DNA of 64,000 nt from Palleronia sp. THAF1 (GTDB taxonomy: Bacteria > Pseudomonadota > Alphaproteobacteria > Rhodobacterales > Rhodobacteraceae), in contig NZ_CP045420.1 of NCBI RefSeq assembly GCF_009363795.1, forward strand, positions 1,407,001-1,471,000. Direction: 5' to 3'. Made by a program: the position numbers and the translations under genes. The notes under the pieces were generated by a model that saw nothing but the letters and a program-made list of their open reading frames with translations, was not told the DNA's origin and searched no databases. Positions 41,186-45,563 of this stretch are shown here, in pieces. The stretch's first letter is position 1; the number at the start of each line of letters is the position of its first letter.

Positions 41186-41275
41186 GGAGAGGTGCCGGAG
41201 TGGTCGAACGGGGCGGTCTCGAAAACCGTTGAGCCTGCAAGGGTTCCCAGGGTTCGAATCCCTGTCTCTCCGCCA
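41186..41275 (+). tRNA. tRNA-Ser (anticodon CGA), integration target
   Basis: A 90-base class II tRNA with encoded CCA. The acceptor stem GGAGAGG pairs with CTCTCC at the 3' end. The anticodon stem GCGGT/ACCGT encloses loop CTCGAAA with anticodon CGA, and a long variable arm (about 20 bases) and a T-arm GGTTCGAATCC follow. Its last 14 bases are part of an 18-bp sequence repeated at 45546, so the mobile element entered here without breaking the tRNA. Confidence 0.96.
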
Positions 41276-41279
41276 TTAT
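41262..41279 (+). repeat. Attachment site next to the intact tRNA (attL)
   Basis: CTGTCTCTCCGCCATTAT covers the last 14 bases of tRNA-Ser(CGA) plus 4 bases. An identical copy lies at 45546-45563 in the same orientation. This is the classic product of tyrosine integrase insertion into a tRNA 3' end. Confidence 0.85.
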
Positions 41280-41363
41280 CTAGATTTTCGGGCTACTCAA
41301 CCCACTGAAAAGTCACGTTAACTGCCACTTTCCGGATCGGCCTGCGGTAGCGCGTATACTTTC

Positions 41364-41395
41364 TGGGTTACATTCCGGGTTACAAATTGGGATAC
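41364..41395 (+). repeat. Integrase arm-type repeats, left end
   Basis: GGGTTACA at 41365 and 41377 and GGGATAC at 41389 form three direct repeats with a 12-base period, between attL and the integrase start. A near-identical block lies at 45452-45483. The spacing suggests arm-type binding sites for the element's integrase N-terminal domain, or recombination directionality factor sites. Confidence 0.65.
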
Positions 41396-41438
41396 TTGAT
41401 CCGCCGGGAACGCTCGGCGCGTTTGGAGCTATCCCGCC

Positions 41439-42143
41439 ATGTCCATCATCAAGCGCGGTAAGCGCCTGTCCCTCTACCGACGCGTGCCGTCGCAGTATGC
41501 TGCCGTGGACAAACGCACATTCGTGAAAATGAGCCTGGGGACTGACAGCTACGAGCTTGCGGAAGCCAAGGCTCCGGCGATCTGGCAACAGCTTGTTGAG
41601 GGATGGGAAGCCAAGCTGGCCGGTGAGGACGCTGATGCGGAGCGGGCTTTTGAGGCCGCACAGAAGCTGGCGGTAGCGCGTGGCTTTCGATACCTGCATC
41701 GTGCCTAGGTCGCCGACCTACCGATCGAAGATCTGATGGCCCGTGTGGAAGCGGTGACCACCAACCGGCCCCGTGGTGGCCCTGTTGACCGCCTTGAGAC
41801 GGCAGCGGTGCTGGGAGGCGTAGACGCGCCCAAGATCAGCCTGACTAAAGCGCTGGATGCCTATTGGACGCTAACCAAGGACAAGACACTGGGCAAGAGC
41901 GAAGACCAGCTTCGACGGTGGCGCAATCCTCGGGTGAAGGCGGTAAAAAATTTGGTGGGCGTCATCGGTGATAAATCGCTTGAAGAAGTGACTGGCGACG
42001 ACATGCTAGAGTTTCGCGACTGGTGGATGGAGCGGATTGAGCGCGAGGGTCTGACGCCGAACTCGGGCAACAAATATCTGATCCACATTGGCGACGTAAT
42101 GAAAACAGTGAATCGGATGAAGCGGCTCGGTCTGGTCCTGCCT
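41439..42143 (+). pseudogene. Tyrosine integrase, nonsense mutation and 3' truncation
   Basis: Codes for the N-terminal ~235 codons of a phage-type site-specific integrase. It begins MSIIKRGKRLSLYRRVPSQY, an N-terminal DUF6538-like arm-binding domain, and continues to a core-binding domain (LTPNSGNKYLIHIGDVMKTV). Codon 90 is an in-frame TAG (41706-41708); the same frame continues beyond it with good coding sense. The frame then ends at the IS5 left inverted repeat, and no catalytic R-H-R-Y domain appears on the other side of the IS, so it was deleted. It starts about 160 bases from attL, the usual position. Confidence 0.82.
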
Positions 42144-43197
42144 CGGCTTTGTTGCGCAAAGGAGGTGAGGGGCGCACTTCCCCTTTCCCCAGACGCACTT
42201 ATCCCACGGGCTCGGTGACAGGTATGCCGAGCGCGGTGTAGCCGTTCAGGACGGCAGCGCGGATCTGGAGCTCGGCGACTTGGCGATCGAAGTCGCGTGC
42301 CATGAGGCTCTGCCCCAGCAGCTTCACGCAATGCATCTTCGTCTCGGCGCGGCTTCGGCGGTGATAGCCGGTCCATTTTCGCCAGATGGCGCGGCCGAGG
42401 TATCTCGAGGCGCGCAGAGCCTCGTTCCGGGCGATGGCCCCCGCGGTCGACGGCTTCCACGGCTTGGCGTTCTTGCGTGGCGGTATGACAGCATCGGCGC
42501 CGCGGTCGGCGACGGCGTCGTGGCACCTGCGCGTGTCATAGGCTCCGTCTGCCGTGACTGAGCCGATCTCCACATCAGCGGGGATCTGGTCAAGAAGCTC
42601 AGGCAGCATGGGCGCGTCCCCGATGTGGCTACCGGTGATCTCGATGGCACGGATCTCCAGCGTCTGTTCATCGACACCGATGTGGATCTTGCGCCACAGA
42701 CGGCGTTTCGCGCCGCCATGCTTGCGCGCATGCCACTCGCCTTCGCCCTCGGCCTTGATGCCGGTGCTGTCGATCAACAGGTTCAGCGGTCCCTGCGAGC
42801 CGCGGTAGGGGATGGTCACGGCCAAGGTCTTCTGGCGTCGGCTCAGCGTGCTGAAATCCGGCACCGTCCAGTCGAGGCCGAGCAAGCGGAGCAGGCTCTC
42901 AACGAACCCGGTCGTCTGCCGGAGGGCCATGCCGAAGAGCACCTTCATCGTCAGGCACGTCTGGATCGCGGCATCGCTATACTGCGGCTGCCTGCCTCGC
43001 TTTCCGGTTGGCGGTGGCACCCAGACCATGCCCGGGTCGAACCAGATCGTCAGGGAGCCGCGCTGCTTCAGCGCTTCGTTGTAGGCCGGCCAGTTCTTGG
43101 TCTTGTAGGTCGGCGGGATAGGTCTGCTCATCCAGGCCAGCTACCACACTGGATTCACGAGATGAATCCCTCGCTCGACCTTTGCGCAACAAAGCCG
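42144..43197 (-). mobile_element. IS5-family insertion sequence
   Basis: 1,054 bp bounded by perfect inverted repeats: GGCTTTGTTGCGCAAAGG at 42145-42162 and its complement at 43179-43196, extended by one base at each end. One full-length transposase gene. No clear target duplication: flanks read CCT on the left and CAT on the right. Missing duplication plus loss of the integrase 3' half suggests an IS-mediated adjacent deletion. Confidence 0.88.
42199..43131 (-). CDS. IS5-family transposase
   Basis: 310-residue DDE transposase, apparently intact. A DUF772-like N-terminal domain (QYSDAAIQTCLTMKVLFGMALRQT, in parts) is followed by the catalytic Asp in LLIDSTGIK, Asp in TADGAYDTRRC, and Glu in RSRAETKMHCVKLLG. 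The gene fills the IS except for ~55 bases at its 3' side and ~65 bases at its 5' side. The start ATG at 43131 begins MSRPIPPTYKTKNWPAYN. Confidence 0.93.
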   Translation of the reverse strand: MSRPIPPTYKTKNWPAYNEALKQRGSLTIWFDPGMVWVPPPTGKRGRQPQYSDAAIQTCLTMKVLFGMALRQTTGFVESLLRLLGLDWTVPDFSTLSRRQKTLAVTIPYRGSQGPLNLLIDSTGIKAEGEGEWHARKHGGAKRRLWRKIHIGVDEQTLEIRAIEITGSHIGDAPMLPELLDQIPADVEIGSVTADGAYDTRRCHDAVADRGADAVIPPRKNAKPWKPSTAGAIARNEALRASRYLGRAIWRKWTGYHRRSRAETKMHCVKLLGQSLMARDFDRQVAELQIRAAVLNGYTALGIPVTEPVG

Positions 43198-43211
43198 CAT
43201 TAGCCTACAAA

Positions 43212-43430
43212 GTGTTCATTGAACTGCCTTGCCATCCTCGCCATCACCGGCGCCTCATCGTAGACGGTGACACCGTGCGCCTTGACGGGCCTAACGTACT
43301 TCTGACGCGTAAGGGAGACGCGCCATTCGACGCTTCAGAAACACGGCGACCGCAGTGCCGGTCCGAGGCCGAGCTTGGCGCTAAGGCCATTGCCACCGCA
43401 AGGGCCATGATGCCCGGTCAACTCTGTATT
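43212..43430 (+). pseudogene. Thermonuclease (SNase-like) remnant
   Basis: In frame from just right of the IS5 end, the translation LIVDGDTVRLDG, then DAPFDASETRRPQC and SEAELGAKAIATARAM, matches the N-terminal half of staphylococcal nuclease-type proteins (VDGDT motif, DxPE-like segment, then the alpha-helix). The N-terminal signal region is missing or out of frame next to the IS, and homology stops after ~60 residues. It is a fragment, not a working nuclease. Confidence 0.55.
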
Positions 43431-43706
43431 ATCGGGGGGCTACGGGCGAATATTGGGCGTGCTCCATGGGAACGATGGTCGCGAGGTAGGACAAGGCCTC
43501 ATGGACCGTGGAATGGCCGTCGCGAGCATGAACGCCGACTGGTGCCGGTGAAAGAGCGCCGATGCCCATAGCGCGATCAGCTGGTCGAAGTGATCTGGCT
43601 CTTCGGGCCGGATCGAGACATTCGCGGGATCCACGAGCGGAAACCACTCGGACAGATAGCGGTATAGCCGCACTACCGCCTGATGGGTAGCCATGTCGGT
43701 GGGCAT
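43429..43706 (-). pseudogene. Unrecognised ORF, probably frameshifted
   Basis: One frame reads MPTDMATHQAVVRLYRYLSE and continues with plausible protein sequence to about QSAFM; the next frame then carries DGHSTVHEALSYLATIVPME to a TAA at 43429. The pattern suggests one ~90-residue protein with a frameshift near 43530. No ribosome binding site is evident. I do not recognise the family. Confidence 0.4.
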
Positions 43707-43736
43707 TGCGCACAGTAGCAGCTTCTTGACCTAGCG

Positions 43737-43761
43737 TAGCGAACGCTAAGCGCGTTCGCTA
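43737..43761. repeat. 10-bp perfect inverted repeat
   Basis: TAGCGAACGC and GCGTTCGCTA flank a 5-base loop at the 3' end of the small minus-strand ORF, including its stop codon. There is no T-run in either direction. It could be a weak terminator or a protein-binding palindrome left from the element. Confidence 0.45.
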
Positions 43762-43943
43762 ACCACTCGCAGTTCGTCAGCGAATACGTTCATGTAAACC
43801 GCACGCTCTGAATCTAGCGCGCGGAGCCGACCCTGACGAGCTCGCTGTATCAGCTCTGAGCTACCACAATATGAGCTGAGGGCTCCCTCGCATTGCACCC
43901 CGCCGTCCGTGTCGGAGCGGGAAAAGAACTGAACAACGTTCAT
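43746..43943 (-). CDS. Small hypothetical protein overlapping the prepilin-like gene
   Basis: 65 residues beginning MNVVQFFSRSDTDGGVQCEG, with two Cys around residues 18-26, no membrane segment and a mixed charged C-terminus. A GGGAG ribosome binding site lies 7 bases upstream, and the ATG overlaps the stop of the preceding prepilin-like gene (ATGA), which argues for real translation. Family unknown. Its stop lies in a perfect inverted repeat. Confidence 0.5.
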   Translation of the reverse strand: MNVVQFFSRSDTDGGVQCEGALSSYCGSSELIQRARQGRLRALDSERAVYMNVFADELRVVSERA

Positions 43944-44080
43944 AAGATCGCTCCCAACCCGAAAAAGCCTGCGCAGCCGACAACGGGGAGCCACAGTACA
44001 AGTTCAATTGTCGTTTGGCCCCATTCTGACTTCAAGAAACAACGCACACCCAAGGGTAGATCATCCATCAAATTTTTCAT
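43940..44080 (-). CDS. Tiny TadE-like prepilin
   Basis: 46 residues. After a 19-residue charged leader, FLKSEWGQTTIELVLWLPVV matches the start of TadE/TadG pseudopilins: a Gly that could be cut by prepilin peptidase, Glu at +5 and a hydrophobic helix. TadE proteins are normally over 130 residues; here the protein ends right after the helix (GCAGFFGLGAIL). A GGAGAG ribosome binding site lies 8 bases before the ATG. It is either a truncated relic or a deliberately small prepilin. The next gene overlaps its stop. Confidence 0.5.
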   Translation of the reverse strand: MKNLMDDLPLGVRCFLKSEWGQTTIELVLWLPVVGCAGFFGLGAIL

Positions 44081-44243
44081 TTTTGCTCTCTCCTTATGCG
44101 GTATCTACCCTGACCTTTGGTACAGGCCGGGATGTTACTGTGGCGGAGCCGAGGTAAGAGTGTGTCGAACCGAGGCCATTAAGTGGCAAGTAAATGAAGT
44201 TTACGAAACAATAAGATTTGAACCAGCATTCCTGACGGCTCCG

Positions 44244-44378
44244 TGAGCTGCTGCCGGTTTCATGGACACGGAAATAAGATCGTGACCATGTAACTGGAGA
44301 TTGGATATGACGAGACGGAAGTTCAGCCGCGAGTTCAAGATCGAGGCGATGCCGATGGTGACTGACCTCCTCCCCTGA
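44244..44378 (+). pseudogene. IS3-family insertion sequence remnant (left end and start of orfA)
   Basis: TGAGCTGCTGCCGGTTTCATGG at 44244 resembles an IS3-family terminal repeat (shown in part by position), and 44307 begins MTRRKFSREFKIEA, the typical OrfA start. After ~15 codons the sequence loses the match and stops at TGA 44376-44378. Only this end remains; the rest has been lost next to the IS427-type insertion. Confidence 0.55.
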
Positions 44379-44399
44379 AAAGCCCGCGATTTGGGGTTA

Positions 44400-45241
44400 G
44401 GCTCTGGACTCATAGCCAAAAGATGACGGCAGCGGCGAGGGCGATGGCTGAGAGGAAGACCGTGGGGCTTCTGTCGTAACGCGTGGCCACGCGTCTCCAG
44501 TCTTTCAGGCGACCGAACATGATCTCAATCCGGTTGCGCTTTCGGTAGCGGCGTTTGTCGTATTTGACCGGGGTGTCGCGTGACTTCCGGCCAGGGATGC
44601 AGGGCTTTATCTTCTTGTTGATAAGGTCTTCGCGGAACCAGTCCGCGTCGTATCCTCGGTCCCCCAAGAGCCAGTCGGCGTCCGGAAGACTGCTCAATAG
44701 AGCTCTGGCTCCAGTGTAATCGCTGGCCTGTCCCGCCGTCATGAAGAACCGGATAGGCCGCCCACACGCGTCCGTCACGGCGTGCAGCTTGGTGTTCATG
44801 CCGCCCTTCGTGCGTCCGATCAGGCGTCCACGCCCCCCTTTTTCGACCATAGACTCGAGGCCGTGCGATGCGCTTTCAGATACGTGGCGTCGATGGAGAT
44901 CGTCTTGTTGTCGGGCGCCTCCGCCGCCAAGCCAGCCATGATCCGCGCGAACACGCCCATATCGCTCCACCGCTTCCAGCGGTTGTAGAGCGTCTTGTGG
45001 GGGCCATATTCACGCGGCGCATCTCGCCATCGCAAGCCATTGCGATTGATGAAGATAATGCCGCTCAGGACCCGTCGATCATCGACGCGGGGCACGCCAT
45101 GGCTCTTGGGAAAGTAAGGCCGCAGCCGCTCCATCTGAGCCTCGCTCAGCCAGTATAGATCACTCATCACGCCCCCTTTGGTTCAGAGGCGATGAATCAC
45201 GCGGGCCGCAGAGCCTCAAGCAGATCAATGGGTCCTGACCC
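44400..45241 (-). mobile_element. IS5-family element, IS427 group
   Basis: 842 bp with imperfect terminal repeats (GGCTCTGGACTC at 44400 and the complement of GGGTCCTGACCC at 45230-45241, 9 of 12 positions alike) and a possible TA duplication (44398-44399, 45242-45243). It carries one transposase in two overlapping frames. Size and ends fit the IS427 group. It looks complete. Confidence 0.8.
44410..45167 (-). CDS. IS427-type transposase with programmed frameshift
   Basis: Frame 1 (45167 to 44820) encodes the N-terminal half: SDLYWLSEAQMERLRPYFP, a DUF4096-type domain, and the first catalytic Asp in SIDATYLKAHR. Frame 2 continues to 44410 with Asp in LLGDRGYDADWF and Glu in RNRIEIMFGRLKDWRR. 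The switch is at AAAAAGGGGGG (44833-44843), a typical slippery run; the frame change there gives a continuous DDE protein of about 250 residues. Both halves look undamaged. Confidence 0.85.
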
Positions 45242-45451
45242 TAACCTCAGCTTCGTCCGCCGAGAAGACGTTGCTCAGCCTAACGATAGAGGTCCGCTTC
45301 AAACATGGCGGTGCTCAGTTCCCTGCACGCTAGTTTTCTAAGATCTTCAGCAGGGATTTGGTGCGGTTCTCACAGAGCATCACCGAGGCATCCTAAACAA
45401 CCGTTTCCGCGGATTACGCGCTCAACAGGCAACCCTCTTGCTGCTTCGATT

Positions 45452-45483
45452 TGGGTTACATTCTGGGTTACAATTTGGGATAC
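45452..45483 (+). repeat. Integrase arm-type repeats, right end
   Basis: GGGTTACA at 45453 and 45465 and GGGATAC at 45477, 12-base period, same orientation and 30 of 32 bases identical to the left block at 41364-41395. It lies 63 bases inside attR. Confidence 0.65.
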
Positions 45484-45545
45484 GCAGAAAATTAAATTGC
45501 ATATAAAACAGATACTTGAGAAGATTATTAAGGCGCTTTGTCGGA

Positions 45546-45563
45546 CTGTCTCTCCGCCATTAT
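45546..45563 (+). repeat. Attachment site, distal copy (attR)
   Basis: CTGTCTCTCCGCCATTAT, identical to 41262-41279. It marks where element DNA stops and the original sequence downstream of tRNA-Ser resumes. It lies 90 bases upstream of preT. Confidence 0.85.

Follow-up and report, generated by a model that had tools for sequence, protein, structure and literature searches.

The window analysed here is a 64,000-nucleotide stretch of the Palleronia sp. THAF1 genome (contig NZ_CP045420.1, positions 1,407,001 to 1,471,000), and within it the 3' end of a complete tRNA-Ser(CGA) gene recurs about 4.3 kb downstream of that gene. We therefore asked whether the DNA between the two copies is what is left of a single integrative element that inserted into the tRNA gene, and if so what has become of that element. 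The features that bear on this question are listed below in window coordinates.

41186-41275, + strand: tRNA-Ser(CGA), the insertion target, still complete (ARAGORN)
41262-41279, + strand: left attachment-site copy, 14 nt of the tRNA 3' end plus TTAT (exact 18-bp repeat)
41364-41399, + strand: left arm sites TGGGTTACATTC CGGGTTACAAAT TGGGATACTTGA, a tandem triple of 12-mers upstream of the integrase start (repeat comparison and pattern search)
41439-42143, + strand: integrase pseudogene limited to residues 1-235, DUF6538 plus the region after it (Pfam PF20172, identity to intact relatives)
42144-43197, - strand: IS5-family insertion sequence (IS), transposase ORF 42199-43131 open, 19-bp perfect inverted ends (Pfam, repeats)
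43224-43551, + strand: decayed staphylococcal-nuclease-like (SNase-like) gene, frameshifted (identity to L309)
44236-44365, + strand: IS3-family insertion-sequence scrap, 5' end of a transposase gene (DNA matches)
44395-45244, - strand: IS5-family insertion sequence, DUF4096 plus DDE, two overlapping ORFs, recent (Pfam, genome copies)
45452-45487, + strand: right arm sites TGGGTTACATTC TGGGTTACAATT TGGGATACGCAG (repeat comparison and pattern search)
45539-45545, + strand: TGTCGGA motif abutting attR, common to three of four intact relatives (comparison with relatives)
45546-45563, + strand: right attachment-site copy, the displaced tRNA 3' end (exact 18-bp repeat)

The 18-mer CTGTCTCTCCGCCATTAT is present at 41262-41279 and again at 45546-45563, a spacing of 4,284 bp. 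The original prediction had described an exact repeat of the tRNA end (14 plus 4 nt) 4.28 kb downstream, and its coordinates and counts are correct. The repeat is not common in the genome; a search of both strands of the 3.34 Mb sequence, allowing up to 2 mismatches, finds exactly these two copies. Under a first-order Markov model, chance exact copies of the 18-mer are expected at about 1e-7 per 20 kb and 4e-5 per genome. This expectation, taken with the paired arms and conserved end spacing described below, refutes the idea that a chance repeat lies beside an unrelated scrap of integrase, which we regard as virtually inconceivable.

Arm-type repeats had been predicted at both ends, and each end does carry three tandem 12-bp units that occur nowhere else in the genome, a degenerate triple 12-mer pattern having exactly two genome matches, one at each end of the element. 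The arm repeat is 32 nt long, with 30/32 positions identical between 41364-41395 and 45452-45483, and its 12-bp units presumably bind the integrase as arm sites. In 16 of the 72 relatives tested a similar triple precedes the integrase start by 57-100 bp, so that triple arms mark one subgroup; the remaining tested relatives have arms of different make, or none visible to the triple pattern. Four relatives are readable at both ends (G227 C3, G227 C22, G231 C39 and G236 C42), and these four intact elements are the basis of the following comparison. The distance from the start of the right arm to attR is 93 bp in the window and 92-93 bp in all four, the copy that follows the right arm is in every case the relative's own tRNA-Ser 3' end, and TGTCGGA lies beside attR in three of the four as it does in the window. 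This shared arm and attachment-site geometry is the strongest evidence for 45546-45563 as the genuine right end, and for left and right ends being of one kind of element.

The left neighbours of tRNA-Ser(CGA), on the rplU side, are conserved in relatives, whereas the DNA to its right is different in nearly every relative species and often includes another recombinase gene. The sequence right of 45563 in the window (preT) lies, in members of the genus, on another contig or hundreds of kb from tRNA-Ser(CGA); it was never found beside that gene in 40 relatives and 13 other genomes of the genus, and in none of the relatives sampled does tRNA-Ser(CGA) run directly into the DNA that follows 45563 here. 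Thus, an empty site was not obtained, because the right side of the tRNA gene is hypervariable and preT is elsewhere in relatives. The 45546 copy was likewise not seen in another context without the element and, since no good-quality copy of a tRNA 3' end was found near preT in relatives, it was probably absent beforehand and arrived with the element. Variability of this kind, together with IS copies in the region that could recombine, would also suit an origin of the two ends from two insertions at the same tRNA, or their joining by a chromosomal rearrangement, so that they were never parts of one element. Such a double origin is improbable, however, given that the left and right arms are nearly identical to each other and unlike the arms of every relative seen, and that the end spacing matches that of the intact relatives. 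In three relatives (L078, L079 and L087) a serine-recombinase gene is found near the tRNA-Ser(CGA) 3' end, with PF00239 confirmed in the first two, although tRNA genes are not known as targets of serine recombinases (PMC4383910).

An integrase gene had been predicted in the position expected for such an element. The position is right (the open frame starts at 41439, 160 bp past the left attachment-site copy), but the gene is not intact. It is an N-terminal pseudogene that runs in a single frame to 42143 with one TAG at codon 90, and it is cut at residue 235 by the directly adjoining IS5-family copy. Its N terminus matches DUF6538 (PF20172) at 28.5 bits against a cut-off of 27, and over its 235 residues it is up to 63% identical to intact relatives of about 422-430 amino acids. 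A tblastn search with 22 relatives gave no convincing match to their C-terminal halves anywhere in the element, and the catalytic domain is also absent by Pfam; the catalytic domain has therefore been lost. In a quick tree the window integrase groups, weakly, with the L153/L155/L159 branch, and the triple arms agree with this placement. A partial literature search found no paper on DUF6538.

Among 80 relatives of the integrase retrieved from GTDB genomes, 68 are preceded by a tRNA-Ser gene at no more than 500 bp, with the anticodons CGA, GCT, GGA and TGA; the group is specific for tRNA-Ser genes, not for one anticodon. The window fits this DUF6538 group in having an integrase (N-terminal fragment only) 3' of a tRNA-Ser, in its triple arms and in its spacing. 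Islander defines a tRNA island by an intact tRNA gene, a displaced 3' fragment that lies downstream and points the same way, and an integrase between them, over 2-200 kb (PMC4383910). The window likewise has a tRNA gene and a displaced same-orientation 3' fragment downstream with integrase sequence between, but it differs from those islands in lacking the PF00589 catalytic domain, only the N-terminal part being present, and the Islander integrase filter would likely reject it. Since only that part of the integrase remains, the element is a degenerate tRNA island and is properly a "remnant of" the class and not an "intact member".

What lies between the ends agrees with the prediction that only accessory or broken genes would be found there: two IS copies, the IS3 scrap, a broken SNase-like gene and sequence without assignment. 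The arms are 4.1 kb apart, and 1.9 kb of that is IS DNA. The IS at 42144-43197 recurs once more in the genome as a 100% identical copy, and by eye no target duplication was seen at either copy, which would fit a deletion beside the IS in the window. The IS at 44395-45244 has five copies elsewhere in the genome at 99-100% identity, and the scrap at 44236-44365 has 84-92% DNA matches in genomes of the family and to annotated IS3 elements on plasmids. The decayed gene at 43224-43551 is 68% identical to L309 at the DNA level and 62-64% identical in amino acids in two frames, and the open protein of L309 matches PF00565. L309 was also considered as part of a parent element, but in the 40 kb read around this locus (in G076) there was neither a related integrase nor a set of arms nor a tRNA-Ser. 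Most of 43552-44235 and 45245-45440 gave no match in the DNA of 198 family genomes, in plasmids or in PHROGs (one ORF was also compared by tblastn with phages and plasmids), and interior searches in those collections returned only the IS and SNase matches. A common origin of the interior and the ends is thus presumptive. The right end has a G+C content of 0.48, and the remaining non-IS or scrap parts have 0.55-0.58, compared with 0.635 in the window as a whole.

The intact relatives give an idea of what the element may once have carried. They measure 15.6 kb (G227 C3), 17.2 kb (G227 C22), 33.7 kb (G231 C39) and 40.7 kb (G236 C42) between the arms, four to ten times longer than the remnant. Genes were annotated in two of the four, G227 C3 (L336) and G227 C22 (L337), sister elements with near-parallel gene order in tRNA-Ser(CGA) and tRNA-Ser(GGA) of one Pseudogemmobacter faecipullorum genome. 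Family searches identify a tape-measure protein, a terminase large subunit and a protease-capsid fusion in L336 and an HNH protein in L337; L337 has the same large genes as L336 by sequence, and a putative portal gene and putative small head-tail genes were recognised from sequence only. The integrases of L336 and L337 are related to that of the window, with about 60% identity to the fragment. Both elements also agree with the window in targeting a tRNA-Ser, (CGA) or (GGA), in having triple 12-bp arms at each end, in the 93-bp spacing from arm to attachment site and in TGTCGGA at attR; they differ in having 15.6 and 17.2 kb between the arms, with protease-capsid, HNH, terminase and tape-measure genes, none of which is left in the window. 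By analogy with these annotated relatives, the lost cargo was possibly phage-like, although the remnant now holds nothing of that character.

In other branches of the integrase tree, elements of about 12-14 kb have capsid and terminase genes that form a different module, and in further branches no such module was recognised. L226, L231, L237 and others from IMG/VR, together with L146, L150 and L161, are of this size and have a related integrase, a protease-capsid fusion and a GpA-type terminase (L231 also has a portal, judged by its sequence); in appearance these are satellites of Rhodobacterales that encode a capsid, or else very small prophages. Numerous elements with a related integrase resemble the capsid-forming phage satellites (cfPICI) named in PMC11389934 in that they fit head and packaging genes of their own into about 12-18 kb; the window differs in having no capsid or packaging gene, and even the intact relatives are only possible members of the cfPICI. 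A capsid-satellite remnant was considered for the window and rejected, the region having no trace of capsid, portal or terminase. Pfam found no relaxase or conjugation domain, as of an ICE or mobilizable element, among the ORFs tested, and such genes could have been lost from the element. Two 8.4-kb elements in tRNA-Ser(CGA), L187 and L188, have the same 14-bp att core as the window, and L187 appears to encode one large relaxase-like protein together with kinase-, phosphatase- and VWA-like proteins, names that come from reading the sequence.

Loss of cargo and of the integration enzyme is a common fate of mobile elements, and we hold with high confidence that 41276-45563, now dead or immobile, is what remains of an integrative element that was specific for tRNA-Ser and had such a history. 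The ancestor, perhaps 15 kb long or longer, would have recombined its attP with the tRNA-Ser(CGA) 3' end, its DUF6538-type tyrosine integrase binding the triple 12-bp arm sites at each end; the tRNA gene would have been restored by the element's own copy of the tRNA end, and the displaced end would have become 45546-45563. Later the integrase would have acquired its nonsense mutation and IS copies would have entered. The catalytic half of the integrase and most of the cargo would have gone in a deletion, for which the simplest place is next to the IS at 42144-43197. The starting points are the two observed ends, the arm and attachment-site geometry common to intact relatives, the broken integrase and the IS copies; from these we infer the order of events, the original size and the deletion mechanism. 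As originally predicted, the element is decayed, sits in tRNA-Ser(CGA), has readable ends and has lost its cargo, all of which is upheld by an end anatomy conserved in intact relatives.

With both arm sets and both attachment-site copies intact and at the right distances, the 4.3-kb segment might still be excised and moved in trans by a related integrase. This is unlikely, as the two other integrase relatives in the genome are only 42% and 38% identical, one being cut by an IS and the other, a 490-aa open frame, lying at tRNA-Ser(GCT). Nor does the genome have any further match to the triple-arm pattern. The open frame (L142, G000:C1:195290-196205) matches relatives over its full length. The interrupted gene, a second DUF6538-type integrase at tRNA-Ser(GGA) (L143, G000:C1:2129410-2131388; 42% identical), is cut by a 100% identical copy of the 42144-43197 IS within about 3 codons of the equivalent position; its C-terminal half is missing too, and the IS has the opposite orientation relative to the integrase gene from that in the window. 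The shared position may reflect coincidence, target preference or rearrangement. It is also improbable that the window element would be a non-autonomous remnant mobilizable in trans and that both tRNA-Ser islands were disarmed by one IS at the same position of their two integrases. We thus retain the dead or immobile remnant as the preferred reading.

As an element the remnant is ordinary: gutted, well delimited and of a known kind. It gives exact ends to those tRNA-Ser elements that have integrases with a domain still labelled "unknown function" (DUF6538), and the signature of triple 12-bp arms, 92-93 bp to attR and often TGTCGGA at attR can find and delimit complete and gutted members even when the integrase is missing. 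The analysis supports the remnant as one of the tyrosine-integrase elements that are specific for tRNA-Ser genes in Rhodobacterales and their kin. Two integrase contigs binned as Acidobacteriota (L194 and L207) may be contamination of their bins, since the tree shows them at near identity with Hyphomonas sequences.
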